A DNA stretch of 64,000 bases from Caenorhabditis elegans (taxonomy: Eukaryota; Nematoda; Chromadorea; Rhabditida; Rhabditidae), in NCBI RefSeq assembly GCF_000002985.6, contig NC_003284.9:14694001-14758000 (forward strand), given 5' to 3'. The notes under the pieces are model-generated. The model searched no databases, had not been told where the DNA came from, and saw only the letters and a list, made by a program, of their open reading frames with translations. The number at the start of each line of letters is the position of its first letter. Within the stretch, counting starts at the first letter, position 1. Below, one piece after another: positions 49,337-61,816 of this stretch. The position numbers and the translations under genes are program-made.

Positions 49337-49689
49337 ATACTACATATACTATTTTGTATGCACGAGGCAGGCAAATTCTGCCTGGAAGACTAACATGCAC
49401 GTTTATTATTTTAAAAAACGCTCAAGGTTTTCGATCTCTGTCCGCTTTGAAACTTTTTGAGTTACACAGCTTTTTGCCTATTTTTCTGTGTTTTACACAT
49501 TTTTTTATTTCCTGCTCGTTCTTCACCTCCTGAAACTTTAGAAATTTCTGTCTAATAAGATCTGAAAACTAAAAACACTAACAAAGAATTGTTGTAAATA
49601 AAAAATTTATCTAATTATCAAGAGCAAGTTCAAATGTTTAAATTATAAAAAAGTTTTTATTTGAAGAATTTAAAAAAAATAGGTCCAAT

Positions 49690-49726
49690 CGAGGTAGATG
49701 CGGATGAGGTAGAGGTGTTGAGGTAG
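49690..49726 (-). promoter_or_regulatory. Cluster of let-7-complementary sites at the end of pri-let-7
   Basis: On the minus (transcript) strand, CTACCTCA occurs at 49719-49726 and 49705-49712, and CTACCTCG at 49690-49697. The first two are perfect complements of let-7 positions 1-8. They lie about 30 bases before the inferred poly(A) signal, where let-7 has been reported to bind its own transcript with ALG-1. Confidence 0.75.
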
Positions 49727-49994
49727 AAGTGTGAGATCCTGATGATTTGCGGTGACAGCCCACTTGGTGCCAGACGGCATTCCCTAGGCGACACGCATGT
49801 TGGAGTAGTTGCCCAGCAGATGAGGTTCCCCTGAAAATAAACATGATTTCCACTATCTACAATGGTGAAGACTAGCAATTGGAACTATTGCACATCTTAC
49901 CACTAGAAATGTCAAACGGCTCCATGGATACATTACTCAACAGTACATACGATTAGATTATTCTCTCCAGATACATTACCGATACAACAGTTCT

Positions 49995-50079
49995 CCGAAT
50001 ACAGTTCGTGAAACAATATCTCCGAATACAGTACAAAAGAATATCAATAGGGATCACCGAATACAGTTCTTGCGACTCC
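49995..50079 (-). promoter_or_regulatory. Repeated ACTGTATTCGG words with GGAG after the let-7 hairpin
   Basis: In the transcript, ACTGTATTCGG occurs at 50057-50067, 50022-50032 and 49995-50005. Two copies continue as TTCGGAG, and a further TTCGGAG is at about 50076-50082. GGAG is the LIN-28 zinc-knuckle motif; another GGAG sits at the hairpin base (about 50186-50189). Confidence 0.5.
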
Positions 50080-50172
50080 GAATTGATAGCACAAAATAAA
50101 GAAAAACAAAGAGGTGAAAGTAAGAGGAGGAAGAAAACGAAAAGAAAGTTGTGAGAGCAAGACGACGCAGCT

Positions 50173-50271
50173 TCGAAGAGTTCTGTCTCCGGTAAGGTAG
50201 AAAATTGCATAGTTCACCGGTGGTAATATTCCAAACTATACAACCTACTACCTCACCGGATCCACAGTGTA
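50173..50271 (-). ncRNA. let-7: let-7 microRNA precursor hairpin
   Basis: The minus strand folds into a long hairpin. The 5' arm contains the 22-base mature let-7 (TGAGGTAGTAGGTTGTATAG, then TT; plus 50234-50255). The 3' arm contains the star strand (CTATGCAATTTTCTACCTTA, then CC; plus 50191-50212). The 99-base precursor agrees with C. elegans let-7 as I know it, from TACACTGTGGATCC to CTCTTCGA. let-7 is the heterochronic microRNA that represses lin-41, daf-12, hbl-1 and others at the larval-to-adult switch. Its presence identifies the chromosome as X. Confidence 0.98.
50234..50255 (-). ncRNA. let-7: mature let-7-5p
   Basis: An exact 22-base let-7 with seed GAGGTAG, in the 5' arm of the hairpin. 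It is invariant across bilaterian animals. Confidence 0.98.
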
Positions 50272-50296
50272 GACCGTCCACCAATCGCCTGCTTGC

Positions 50297-53200
50297 CTGA
50301 AAAATGGATTAGTACTTGTTGTTAAATTAGACATATAAATTCAAAGGGAGATGTGTTCTAGGAAGTAAAGTTATTCTAAAAGTCTCTAAATCTAGGTTTC
50401 TAATAAATAAGTGTAACTGAAAATTTTCCTACGAAAAGAGAAAAAAACGACCGCTGCTAGGTGGGCTACTCATCTAGAATAAGAAAAAAAAACTGATGCG
50501 CTTCTCATATATGAACAGAAACCCGCGAGAGGTGGGGCTAAAAGGGCGCCGGCGGCACACGGAGCAACTTGGTGGCTCGCGGTTCGCTGCGTCTCTTCGT
50601 CTCCGTATGCTCCATTGTTGCGAACCGCGGGCCCGGGCGGCAGTACCGGGCGCCGTCGTCCTCCATGGTATCAGGCAAAAGTGCGTGAAACGGGGCAGTG
50701 CCTGCCGCTACATACACATACGCAAACGACGCCTAGACGAATTTAGAAGGAGGGAAATAGGAGGAGAGAGAGAGTGGTCAGTGCACACTTGATTGATGAT
50801 CCAGAAAATGTTGCAAATGTACACGAAAGATGGCAAGAGGGAAACTGATAAGAAAGGTATGGGTGTTGAAAAAATGGGTCTATATTAATTGCTCAATGAC
50901 AGATTTTCAATTATAGCTAGAAAAGTTGCATGTTCGATCATTTTTTCCAATGTTGAGAAGCTAATTTTTAAAATAAAATTATTTAAAATAGGAGAAATGA
51001 TGCCAAAAAATGATTTTGTATTTTTTTTATGGATGTTTAAATGTTTGAAAAATCAAAATTAAAATTAGGTAAACCTCAAATTATACCATTTTTTTGCATG
51101 TTTTTGTAGTTAAAAGTTGTAATTTTTTAGTTTCATTATAGAGCAATAAATTTTGCTATATTGTTTCAAAATCTGCCTTAAAAAAGCCTCAAAGAATATA
51201 TTCACTCGAAGAACACAACATGTTATTTCACGAGAAAGATATACCCACTACTACGTCACAGCAAAAAACGGCTGCACGAATGAAGAGGAATTGAAAGTGG
51301 ACAGACTGTGGACATCCGAGTGACCCAGTTCCCTCCTAGATAGTTTTTTTTCGCTTTCAACTCCGCCCACAAAAAAACAGTGCAAGTTGGTTCCGTGCAA
51401 ACAATGACCTGTGCAACGGCTAGCACTGCGTGACACCCGATTAAATTCGCGTAGATGTTTTTTTTTTCTCTCTCTCTCTTTCGAATCGGATAAAAAAGAA
51501 ATGGAACTTTTGTTCCACTTTTGATGGTATTTTATTGCGGTGACCTGGATTTTGCAACATGTGCATTCGAGGGTAAAGGAAGAAGGGAAATTTGAAAGAA
51601 ACATTTGAAATGGGCATGTAAGTTAAGTTAAAGTTTGTCCAGCTATTCTATTTTTCAGGAAAAAAACTGCATATCTTTTACGAAAGCGATATCAAAACAT
51701 CTTCGAAAGGACAGATTGAAAAGTGAAAAAAAGATAACCTAGTTTTTTTTTGAGACGGAAAAAAGTGACCACCAATTAAAAAAAAACTGTATCGATGCTG
51801 CATATGGGGTCACTTAACAAATGGGCTGCTGTTGCCAAAATAAAAACATAAAATTTATTAGGCATATGGTTTAACAAAAATAATGAATTATGCGGTATTT
51901 TTTTAGGTTCACGCTTCTAAAATTCATGAAATTAACATTCAAAAAACGGTTTAACTATCTCAAAAAATTCCCCCCCCCCCCTCTAAATTTTTACAGGCTT
52001 AAAAGAGGGAGGGTACCGAAATTCGGGCTTTGCTTTTTTAACTCAAATGGTCCAAAACTACCAAATTTCAAAATAAGACGTTCTGTTCTCAAAAAAAAGT
52101 TATGATTTGAAAGAAACGTTCATTTTTTAGCTAATATCTCAACTTTTTTGTAGCTTCCAAAAATGTATAGAAAGTGTGCCCGCATCGGCAAAAAAACATC
52201 TTAATTAACGAGATAACTATAAATTGTGAAGACATTAAAAGATAATAATTGAATGAAAATTAAGCTCCACACTGAAAAATTGCCCAGTTTTTCCAAAACT
52301 TTGAGCGGCACCATAACTTTTGGTTGAGAAATTTTCAGAACGTCTCATTCCAAAATTTGGTAGTTTTAAGCCATTTTGGGCCTAAAAAAAGCTACGTCTC
52401 AAATTTTTGTACTCCACCTTTGAACGATTACACTCGAATTCAGAGTTTTTGGGAATAGCTGGAAGTAAATTTTCGGTCGATTGGTGTGCTAATTTGTCAA
52501 CTTTTGAGCACTTTTCAATCGAAAATGCACATAAAAGAGGAGTATCTACTTTGGGTTTTTTCTTTGTATAAACTCAAAATCTGCCTAAATGCACTAATTT
52601 CGTAATGAGAATTCTCAAAAGTGTCTCAAAAAAAATTTAATTTTTTTATAGAGGTGCAAAATTTCGAGAAAATTATGTCCTTATTTTTAACTTAAAACCC
52701 AAATTTTGCAAATAAGTCCGTGCCGCAAAGGTGAAAAATTTTTTTCTACTTCATTCTTTATTGCACATGTCAATCTCTTTTGAATACCTATTACTTAAAT
52801 TTTAACTTAATCAACGAAATGTTGTAAGATAAACGACCAATTTGGCATTTTTTATAACTATATTTAGGTAACTTTTTTTTTCGGAAACCTTCCAACATCA
52901 TGATGTAAGTTCAATTTTTTCTAACAATATTTTCACCTAATAACTTTGTTTTTTTTTCAACTGTTAACATACAAAAATCTTTAGAACTTATAGATTTTTT
53001 ACATAGTTATAACGTTATTTCCAACATTCTCTGCAATATTTTTTCACATTTCCACAAGACTCCCATTCATCTTTTCTCACTGTGTGTCAGCCGCCTTCCC
53101 TTTTTTGCGTTATCTCGTTCTCTCCACCGCACTCTTTCGCAATGGGCAGCGGCAACACTGCACCGGTAGTACGTCAGCAACTACTCTCGAGAAATGCGCC

Positions 53201-53339: not shown

Positions 53340-56300
53340 ATGCAACACAATGAGTGCCTTAACACAAATATTAATCCAAACTCATTGAAAGTCGATAAAG
53401 AGGTAAATATATTTTCATTTTCATGGTTTCATAATTCACTCAATCAATATTTCAGCTGACTCAAATGGCTCGTGACATATCAACAAGAATGAACCAAAGA
53501 ATGACACAAGTCGAGCGTAAAGCCAATGATTTGGAAAAGTTTTCGAGACTTGTAGCATTACGAGTTAATAGTGCAGCATCACGGATGGCCAATCTTAAAA
53601 ATCACAAAGCAGTTAGGCAGGTCAGCATTTTTTTTTAATTTTGAAGTCATTGGACCCAAAAATTTCAATTTAAGTACAAGCCTCCCACATACCTCATAAA
53701 TTTTCCATTTTTTCAGGTTATTTCTACCCAAAACATTCCAAATTCTGAAGACATGCGGGTTGATAGCAGAAAAAGCAGCGGGTTCACTCAGGAATTTTTG
53801 GATTCTTACAAAAACGCAATTATCAATGCCGGAAACACTATGAACTTCCTGGTGAGTATTTTCATTCATCAAAAAACTTTTAAAAAATCTCTAACTCCAG
53901 GAAAATCCAACAGTCTTCACGTCCGGATATATTGGAGAGCAGTCTGAAACCAATGGTAATGCAAATGGACAAAGTGCCAGTAGACCACAAGCCAATAGGA
54001 ATAGACAAAGAGCATCTAGCTCAGATGAAGATGAAGTTGTGGAGTCTAGTAGATCACGTGTGGAAATCGGAAATGGCGTAGAGCAGCCAAAAATCGATAT
54101 AGGTCCACGGGTAGCACAAACCGTTGAGGAGCCGGTGACACTGGCAGGTGGGGTTTTTCAATTCGAAAATGATGTATCCAGGAAGTTACATTTTATAACT
54201 CATATTGAAAGTTCAAGGTAGGACAACGGAAAGAACGACGTTTTTCCGTTCATAAGCGGATACGAATTTGTTATCAAGCCTAAATCTTATGGAGTAGTGT
54301 CGGAAATTAAAAAAATGTAGAAAAATGATGTCACGTCTGAAAAACTTGTACTTCAATGTAGCTGTGACGTCATTTTTGTACACTTTCTTATTTTCCGACA
54401 CTTCTTGAATAACCCTTTTACACAAAACGCCAATTCACAGGAACAATTTTTTAGCCACCCGCAACTTCTTCGCCAAACTTTTGCTACTTTCCCAACCAGC
54501 TTTATACATTTTTATTTTATTGAACTTTATTTCTTTATAAATACGAGAATATGCCCTGACATGAGAAATTCACAAAACTAAATTTGTTTTTTTCAGCTCC
54601 GCCACAGCCAAAGCCACCAAAACCATCTCCATCAACTACTGCCATCTTGGTAGATCAAGTCGGTCAAAATGGGATTCAACACTCACCTCAAGACGTACCG
54701 AAAGAAGTTGCTAGTATCACTTCACAAAACGAAAATAGCCTGGCAGAGCATCACAATGAGAAATTGGTATCCGAAAGTGCTATGCCAATTGAGAAGGGCC
54801 CAACGAGACCGGCGGCTATGGCTTCAGTGATTGGGGAAATGAAGAAAAAGGTTGCCGCAAAAGCCAAGCTTTTGGACTCTGATTCGGATACGGATCGTGA
54901 GCCGCTTGGTAGTAGTGAGACCGAATCGGTGACCGTTAAAAAACTGGAGACAAGCACGGTTGAAGTTGTGAAGACCAGTATTTCTGCTGATCCGGTGATT
55001 GTGATTGGCCATCCAAAAATTGAAGTCATCGCTGCAGTTGCAACGGTTGCAAAAACTGAAAAGCCAGCCGCTTCAAAGGTTGTTAAAATATTTATAACAA
55101 TAAACTCGTAATGAAATTGTATTTCAGGTGCTTCCAAAAGCTGTGGCTACTCCTGTGAAACCGGCTGAAGCGACTCCAGCGAAACCAGACGAGTCTGCTC
55201 TGTCAAGAAAAATCTTAGCAAATGAGTTAAAGCCAGTGGACACTAAAAAGCTCGTGTCAAGCTTATTTGACTCCGACTCTGACTCGGACACGGACATCTT
55301 CAAGCCAACTACATCAATCAAGAAGCAGCCAACAGAAGTTGTCAAGAAATCGGTGCCACCCAAGCCTGTTGAGGTCAAGGTTAGTGAATAGAGTGAATAG
55401 TTGTTTGCTCAGCTTTATATTTCGCTCATCACGAAGCCACAATTTTTTTTCCGAAATGTCATGCTCCTATTTTCACAATGTTATATTTTACAGAAAGTAG
55501 AGACTCCAAAACCTTCTCAGCCACCTCAAGTCAAACCCACAAACCATACTGCTGTCCCAGCCACTAAACCAGTTGCGAAAAAATCTTTGTTCTCATCAGA
55601 TTCGGACTCTGATGACGACTTTTTAAAGTCGTTCTCAAAATCAAAGCCTGTTGCTAAAACGGAATCCATTCCCGTTGTGAAGAAGCCTATTGAGCCAGTT
55701 GTTGTTCCAAAAGCTGTTGATATTCCAGCGGTAAGTTTTGTTCTAAATACACTGGACAGAGTATGTAAATTGCAGCCAAAACCAACACCTGTCACCAACA
55801 CTACCGCAGTAATCCCCAAAGTAGAATTCAAAAAACCAGCCGCCAAGTCACTCTTTGATGATAGTGACTCTGACTCAGACTTGTTCTCTCTACCCACAAA
55901 ACCGAAAACACCAATCGCTCCCAAAAACAGAAACTCGTCAATTGTCACTCAACCTGAAATGGTATGATTGATTTCTGAAAATACATATGATTAGCGTTTT
56001 TACTAGCTTTCAGGAACCCTCATCATCTGAACCAGCAAAACCAGCAAAACCATCAATTACCAAAAAAGAGCCACCAAGCGAAACAATGTCTGCAAAAATA
56101 TCACTAATAGGAGACTTACAAAAATCATTCCGTCTCCCGGGTTCTACACCTAACATTCCTGTCAAAAACTTACCGGTTAGCGATGAAAATGATGTCGCTG
56201 CTGAGAATCCAGAAGATCACGTCGGTAGTATTTTGAAGGTAGTACATAGTCTGTTATTTGAAACACCAAGAAAACCTTTCAGAGTCGCTGCCGAGGTCCT

Positions 56301-60031: not shown

Positions 60032-61816
60032 ATGTTGAGTCAGCAAATTGCCAACAATGCTAGAACTTTGCAGAAGGGTATGTTTGCCTATTTCATTTAA
60101 ATCACCTTATTTGTATTTCCAGGAGCTGCTCGTTTCTACAACAGCACTTACAACAACCTGAAAATCAACAAGGACACCAAGGTTATTGTGCAAGGATTCA
60201 CAGGAAAGCAGGTATACCCGAATAAATTTATGAATGGCGTGGGAGCTTCTGGAGCGATAATATAAACTCAAACACTGACAATACGCTTTATGCAAAATAG
60301 AGGTCACAACTCAGCTTCATAAAAAATTACATCTTAAAATGAAAACGCCTGTCTTCGCAACTCACTTTAAATTCAGTGTTTTCAAAGTTCAACGGCTATA
60401 AAATTTTAATGTATTCAGATATGCTTTTGACGTCAATACTTTGCGCATAGCGAACTCTTAAAATATCGAAAATATGTATTTCAAAAAAAAAATTCACAAA
60501 AATTTCAGGGTACCTTCCATGGAAAGCAAATGCTCGAGTACAACACTAAAGTCGTCGGTGGAGTAAATGCCAACAAGGCCGGAACAGAGCACTTGGGACT
60601 CCCGGTCTTCAAGAACGTCTCCGAAGCTCGCAACAAGACCGGAGCCGACGCCTCTGTCATCTACGTTCCAGCCAGTGCTGCCGGTAGCGCCATCGAGGAA
60701 GCCATGGACGCCGAGATTCCATTGGTGGTGTGCATCACTGAAGGAATCCCACAACACGATATGGTCCGTGTTAAGTCGCGTCTTCTCAAGCAGAACAAGA
60801 CAAGACTTGTTGGGCCAAACTGTCCAGGAATCATCTCGGCCGATCAGTGCAAGATCGGAATCATGCCAGGACACATTCACAAGAGAGTAAGTTATAAATA
60901 TTGTTGTAGAACCCTTTAAAATCCTTCTCAAGTGAAGTTGAACTTCGAAAACATGTTCAGAAATTATCAATTAAAAATTTTATCAAAACTGTTTGCTGAA
61001 CTTGTAGGGATGCATCGGAATCGTCTCCCGCTCAGGAACTCTCACCTATGAAGCTGTGCACCAGACTACTCAAGTCGGATTCGGACAGACTTTGTGCGTC
61101 GGAATTGGAGGCGATCCATTCAATGGAACAAACTTCATCGACTGCTTGAACGTCTTCCTTGAGGATCCAGAAACTAAGGGTGAGCTCATGTTTCATGAAA
61201 ATAATACCCTAATGTGAACTCAAACAATGTGATTTTGTATTTATCAGTACCCAGAGTAGCCAGTAAAAATTAAAAAAAAAAAGAATATGAAACCAATTAT
61301 TTTCCAGGAATCATTCTCATCGGAGAAATCGGAGGATCAGCTGAAGAGGAGGCCGCCGCATACCTTAAGGAGCACAACTCGGGAGCCAACAGGAAGCCAG
61401 TCGTCTCATTCATTGCCGGAGTCACAGCTCCACCAGGCAGAAGAATGGGACACGCCGGAGCCATCATTTCGGGAGGAAAGGGAACCGCTGCTGACAAGAT
61501 CAATGCTCTTAGAGAAGCCGGAGTAGTAGTAAGTTTTTACGTTTTTCCAGAATAAAATTTAAAGCTGCACTTTGAAGCTTGGGATATACAGTGTTCTGTT
61601 GCAAAAGTTGTCAAAATAATCTAGAACATTTATGAAGTTACACCTTGTTCATGACGATTTACCTTAGAATTTAACTTGAAAAGTCAGCAGGTTTTTAAAG
61701 ATATTTTGAAAAATTAAACTTGGTTGCTAAAAAAATGCCATAATTTGTTTCAGGTTACCGACTCTCCAGCTAAACTTGGAACCTCCATGGCCACCGCTTT
61801 CCTGGGAAAGATCTAA
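60032..61816 (+). CDS. sucl-1: Succinyl-CoA ligase alpha subunit, mitochondrial
   Basis: Six exons (60032-60077, 60123-60211, 60509-60886, 61008-61179, 61308-61528, 61754-61816) encode 322 residues. The N-terminal 25-30 residues, rich in Asn, Gln, Ala, Arg and Lys, fit a mitochondrial presequence. The CoA-binding Rossmann domain follows: [14 protein letters not shown] for CoA binding, GGVNANKAG and VYVPA-type strands, [12 protein letters not shown]. Then comes the ligase domain with [10 protein letters not shown]. The phospho-histidine is His277 in GHAGAII. It forms the ATP- or GTP-specific enzyme with a beta subunit encoded elsewhere and makes succinate plus nucleoside triphosphate in the citric acid cycle. 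Full length, all key residues present. Third-position-biased codon use in the exons suggests high expression. The ATG follows a TTTCAG acceptor by six bases, fitting trans-splicing. The symbol is recalled from the locus near let-7. Confidence 0.95.

Follow-up and report, generated by a model that had tools for sequence, protein, structure and literature searches.

let-7 is a founding microRNA, and its locus is a well-studied case of a primary microRNA undergoing splicing. The 22-nt mature sequence is common to most bilaterians, and production of the mature RNA by Drosha and Dicer is established for let-7. SL1 trans-splicing of the primary transcript, pri-let-7, was reportedly described by Bracht et al. 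in 2004, and splicing was said by Mondol et al. in 2015 to aid Drosha. SL1 trans-splicing downstream of the hairpin, giving a short RNA that carries let-7 complementary sites, was reportedly found by Nelson and Ambros in 2019, and the let-7 complementary sites of pri-let-7 are said to have been treated by Zisoulis in 2012. Three papers bear on splicing of pri-let-7 (PMC11109986, PMC6071595, PMC9377799). According to one of them, which cites Bracht 2004, two pri-let-7 transcripts arise from two start sites, and both are spliced to yield a third (PMC6071595). In another, SL1-pri-let-7 is described as the trans-spliced primary miRNA and is quantified by an RT-qPCR assay whose forward primer consists of SL1 followed by GC (PMC11109986). 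Further down the transcript, a LIN-28 site is placed 170 nt below pre-let-7, with sites complementary to let-7 another 200 nt or more beyond it (PMC4408804), and a review describes binding of ALG-1 to the pri-let-7 3' end (PMC3771402).

The window analyzed here, meaning the whole stretch of 64,000 nucleotides, contains this gene on its minus strand. The 99-nt stem-loop of the miRBase entry cel-let-7 (gene C05G5.6) is reproduced without a single difference at 50271-50173 (minus strand). The mature let-7, with its TGAGGTAG 5' end, is present and exact on the 5p arm (50255-50234, minus strand), with 0 mismatches over 22 nt. It is the sole match in the window at up to three mismatches (0/100 shuffles gave a match), and an exact-pattern search across the 100.3-Mb genome found one copy, at C6:14,744,234-14,744,255. 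The let-7* sequence of the 3p arm is likewise exact at 50191-50212 (minus strand). RF00027 (let-7), the only Rfam family above its cut-off in the window, covers 50260-50188 (minus strand) and scores 62.9 bits, above its gathering score of 53.5. In the genome search this family recovered the let-7 locus alone, and three sister microRNAs that it had missed were located by exact pattern. The predicted fold of the stem-loop has an energy of -42.5 kcal/mol (z -6.39), with 0/200 shuffles folding as well. RF00027 also hits the plus strand at this locus with 42.7 bits, below the cut-off, and this hit simply mirrors the hairpin. In sequence over 99 nt, strand and genome position, the gene agrees with C. 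elegans let-7 itself (RF00027), and no difference was found. A sequence-only reading made before this analysis had claimed an exact let-7 hairpin, to be checked for any mismatch in the mature 22 bases; the complete match to the stem-loop and the RF00027 score bear this out, and the check revealed none.

The genome position is in line with the coordinates on X that have been published for the promoter of let-7. These coordinates (X:14,747,074-14,747,179) are accompanied by a start about 1.7 kb below, which corresponds to about position 51,430 of the window; this would place the start of the long transcript upstream of let-7, given its minus-strand orientation. The identification of the locus as the let-7 gene of C. 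elegans, chromosome X, is supported, and the species and chromosome named from the letters alone are upheld by the 99/99-nt match, an exactly mapping C. elegans primer and the published X coordinates.

The trans-splice acceptor is an TTTTTCAG octamer at 50304-50297 (minus strand), followed by an exon that starts at 50296 and opens with GC. The distance from this exon start to the 5' end of mature let-7 is 41 nt, so that the earlier claim of a strong acceptor 41 bases before the mature end proved right to the base. The interval quoted with that claim (50173-50296) encloses the hairpin and the exon start, and the acceptor octamer itself falls just outside it. When the 80 AGs from 51437 to 49640 were compared with TTTTTCAG, the octamer ranked first with 8/8 positions matched, and three others reached 7/8. 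Taken alone it is not rare, because the minus strand of the window holds 21 copies, corresponding to a chance of about 2% per given 60 nt. An acceptor scoring 7/8 or 8/8 was found within 400 nt upstream in none of four comparator microRNAs, mir-48, mir-84, mir-241 and lin-4, whose best scores are 6, 5, 6 and 6, respectively.

Joining of SL1 to pri-let-7 is already published, and the published assay can be placed on the window. The terminal GC of its SL1+GC primer equals the first two exon bases (50296-50295), and its reverse primer maps exactly to 50166-50185, giving a product of about 153 bases. The tie of the forward primer to 50296 rests on these two bases, GC; AGs ending at 51177 and 51188 also precede GC, and from them the amplicon would be about 1 kb. 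The methods of the same paper also assign to SL1-pri-let-7 a different pair, JKq17 and JKq18, which it lists for actin (PMC11109986); the wording is ambiguous, and this pair is read here as the reference pair. The acceptor at 50297/50296 fits the SL1+GC primer, and no difference from the published SL1 trans-splicing of pri-let-7 was found. The claim that the acceptor agrees with the reported trans-splicing is thus supported by the published primer together with the mapped reverse primer, and this indirect evidence agrees with joining of SL1 at 50296. As to the leader itself, a genome search with the 37-mer start of the SL1 RNA gene returned 10 exact matches, all in one cluster on contig C5, and RF00198 (SL1) scored 49.7 bits (cut-off 75) at the same ten places.

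According to the proposed pathway, RNA polymerase II would transcribe pri-let-7 from the minus strand, and the spliceosome would exchange the outron for the 22-nt SL1 leader at the acceptor whose last base is 50297, leaving an exon that starts 41 nt 5' of mature let-7. Drosha would cut the hairpin, Dicer would trim the product, and mature let-7 would be loaded into ALG-1. The outron would extend over 50297-51437 (minus strand), its upper limit being the presumed start of the long transcript. It includes a GC-rich block at 50500-50799, reaching 62.5% GC in 200-base windows against 36.5% for the window overall, with an inverted repeat at 50574-50587/50620-50633. This block was considered as a structured element and rejected, the fold of 50500-50720 being ordinary (z 0.25, with 119/200 shuffles as good). 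We hold with near certainty that this is C. elegans let-7, with SL1 replacing the outron ahead of Drosha, Dicer and ALG-1. Direct observations are the identity of the sequence, the acceptor with its spacing, the SL1 genes of the genome and the fit of the published primer pair to the junction; that the locus is transcribed, that the RNA is spliced in vivo and that Drosha, Dicer and ALG-1 act on it comes from established knowledge or inference. Both the gene and its acceptor are already known, indeed textbook, and the confirmed content is published; they were placed correctly to the base from raw sequence.

The sequence-only reading had added that trans-splicing "exposes the hairpin for Drosha," and the folding results lend this no support. 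Stem pairing was followed in 26 unspliced and 5 SL1-joined constructs. Every unspliced construct retained 27-30 of the 30 stem pairs in its minimum-energy fold, and all five SL1-joined constructs had 30/30, so that the stem is predicted to fold with or without the outron. Masking, with a hairpin hidden in unspliced and free in spliced RNA, was not seen in these thermodynamic predictions. Accessibility of the flanks was computed for four unspliced, three SL1-joined and two exon-only constructs, with the 5' flank defined as 50280-50268. The unpaired probability of this flank was 0.34-0.36 in the four unspliced and 0.48-0.57 in the three SL1-joined constructs; of the two exon-only ones, the full construct gave 0.50 and the local one 0.38. 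Lower stem probability was 0.78-0.95 unspliced, 0.97-0.99 SL1-joined, and 0.95 (full) and 0.80 (local) for exon only. The 3' flank hardly changes (0.44-0.57, 0.47-0.54 and 0.51-0.56 in unspliced, SL1-joined and exon-only constructs, respectively).

Among full-length constructs, the 5' flank value is 0.35-0.36 unspliced, 0.48 with SL1 and 0.50 without a leader; the opening is attributable to loss of the outron rather than to the leader, because the exon without leader is as open as the SL1-joined one. SL1 stands out only in the local construct, where it gives 0.55, the native 22 nt 0.34 and the exon without a leader 0.38. Even there, shuffled SL1 equals SL1 on the flank in 24/200 cases and on the lower stem in 19/200, and random 22-mers from the window equal it on the flank in 18/200. 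Folding with shuffled and random leaders demonstrated no SL1-specific effect on the flank, and the flank changes are modest. Any help that splicing gives to Drosha is likelier to come through flank remodelling than through unmasking of the hairpin, as far as these models can suggest; the direction of the flank change agrees with such remodelling, and its size is no proof of it.

Several alternative explanations bear on different parts of the pathway. That the hairpin merely resembles let-7 or is a non-elegans copy, and so does not identify the species, could be argued from the mature 22 nt alone, which are shared by most bilaterians; however, cel-let-7 is matched at 99/99 nt, the published C. 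elegans primer maps exactly and the genome coordinates fit C. elegans, making this almost inconceivable. A different objection concerns the use of the acceptor: 50297 might be joined in cis with an upstream exon of the long pri-let-7, instead of or besides SL1. In this worm a single consensus serves cis and trans acceptors alike, and the long transcript extends far enough upstream to contain a donor, for which a donor-like CAG/GTCATTGT at 51408 is available. This site, however, reaches 6/9, and none of the 56 GTs in 51437-50297 exceeds 6/9 consensus positions, by a simple count against the consensus that leaves room for a weak donor. Such poor donors fit an outron, as judged from the sequence, and in the published assay SL1-joined pri-let-7 is amplified from a primer that ends in the two bases with which this exon begins. 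Cis use of the acceptor is very improbable on this evidence, and trans-splicing of SL1 at 50297 is preferred.

Trans-splicing at this site could nevertheless be a by-product of a strong acceptor lying in the outron, with no effect on Drosha processing. The folding results lean this way: the stem forms whether or not the outron is present, SL1 has no clear advantage over shuffled (24/200) or random (18/200) leaders in opening the flank, and in the full-length construct it has none over an absent leader. The lack of such an acceptor within 400 nt upstream in 4/4 comparators (mir-48, mir-84, mir-241 and lin-4) points in the same direction. On the other side, let-7 is reduced by the published allele mg279, which removes 27 bp upstream of the mature sequence. 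The 2015 paper reportedly found that splicing aids Drosha. Weighing these points, we consider a by-product without such an effect unlikely; that splicing aids Drosha is an inference.

Downstream of the hairpin, the LIN-28 binding region (49993-50023, minus strand) contains two GGAG motifs, starting at 50023 and 49996. It resembles the published LIN-28 site in having two GGAG about 170 nt below the end of pre-let-7 (PMC4408804). Further GGAG motifs are located on either side, at 50079 and 49968. The locus here is additionally spanned by three degenerate 19-nt direct repeats (49992-50072, minus strand), which share ACTGTATTCGG on the transcript strand, are spaced 27 and 35 nt apart, and carry GGAG in two copies and GGTG in the third; the repeat is unmentioned in the passages covered (PMC4408804). 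The predicted fold of 49980-50075 is no better than that of shuffles (z 0.96, 165/200).

A second strong acceptor, TTTATTTTCAG, is found at 49831-49841 (minus strand); it scores 7/8, is one of three such among the 80 AGs, and an exon from it would begin at 49830. This acceptor is presumably in use and is probably that of the published downstream SL1 site. Below it is a let-7 complementary element with three CTACCTC seed sites of the let-7 family (49691-49726, minus strand), whose starts at 49726, 49712 and 49697 are 14 and 15 nt apart; 60 nt held at most one CTACCTC in each of 100 order-1 Markov simulations, compared with these three. An AATAAA at 49656-49661 (minus strand) is a candidate poly(A) signal of pri-let-7 by virtue of its position, which alone is suggestive, because this hexamer occurs 72 times on that strand across the window. 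The known complementary sites and downstream SL1 product thus have as their counterpart here three CTACCTC located below a strong acceptor and before AATAAA. The LIN-28 region, the second acceptor, the seed sites and AATAAA had been absent from the sequence-only reading, and these features too are known.

The second acceptor would also be shared by a candidate 70-nt cis intron (49900-49831, minus strand; GTAAGA...TTTTCAG; 34% GC). Its donor, GTAAGA at 49900, matches 7/9 consensus positions and is unremarkable as one among 40 GTs there, because 46 of the 3,369 minus-strand GTs reach at least 7/9. Use of 49831 by SL1 might free a short RNA with the three sites, and removal of the 70-nt intron might instead join the sites to the hairpin exon; such double use of the acceptor is improbable, in our estimation. 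If it is true, splice choice at 49831 could decide between cis and trans action of the complementary element.

Elsewhere in the window, a weak Rfam match to the cow-rumen-3 family at 52440-52328, with 22 bits where 86.7 are required (E 0.11), was taken as chance. Open frames rich in Ser and Asp, with repeated SDSDSD stretches, are present at 54560-55967 (plus strand), one of them at 55104-55391 between 54560-55111 and 55401-55967; the two outer frames were scanned and had no Pfam match. Open frames at 60431-61555 (plus strand) encode CoA-binding (PF02629) and CoA-ligase (PF00549) domains, an arrangement that fits a putative gene for the alpha subunit of succinyl-CoA ligase.
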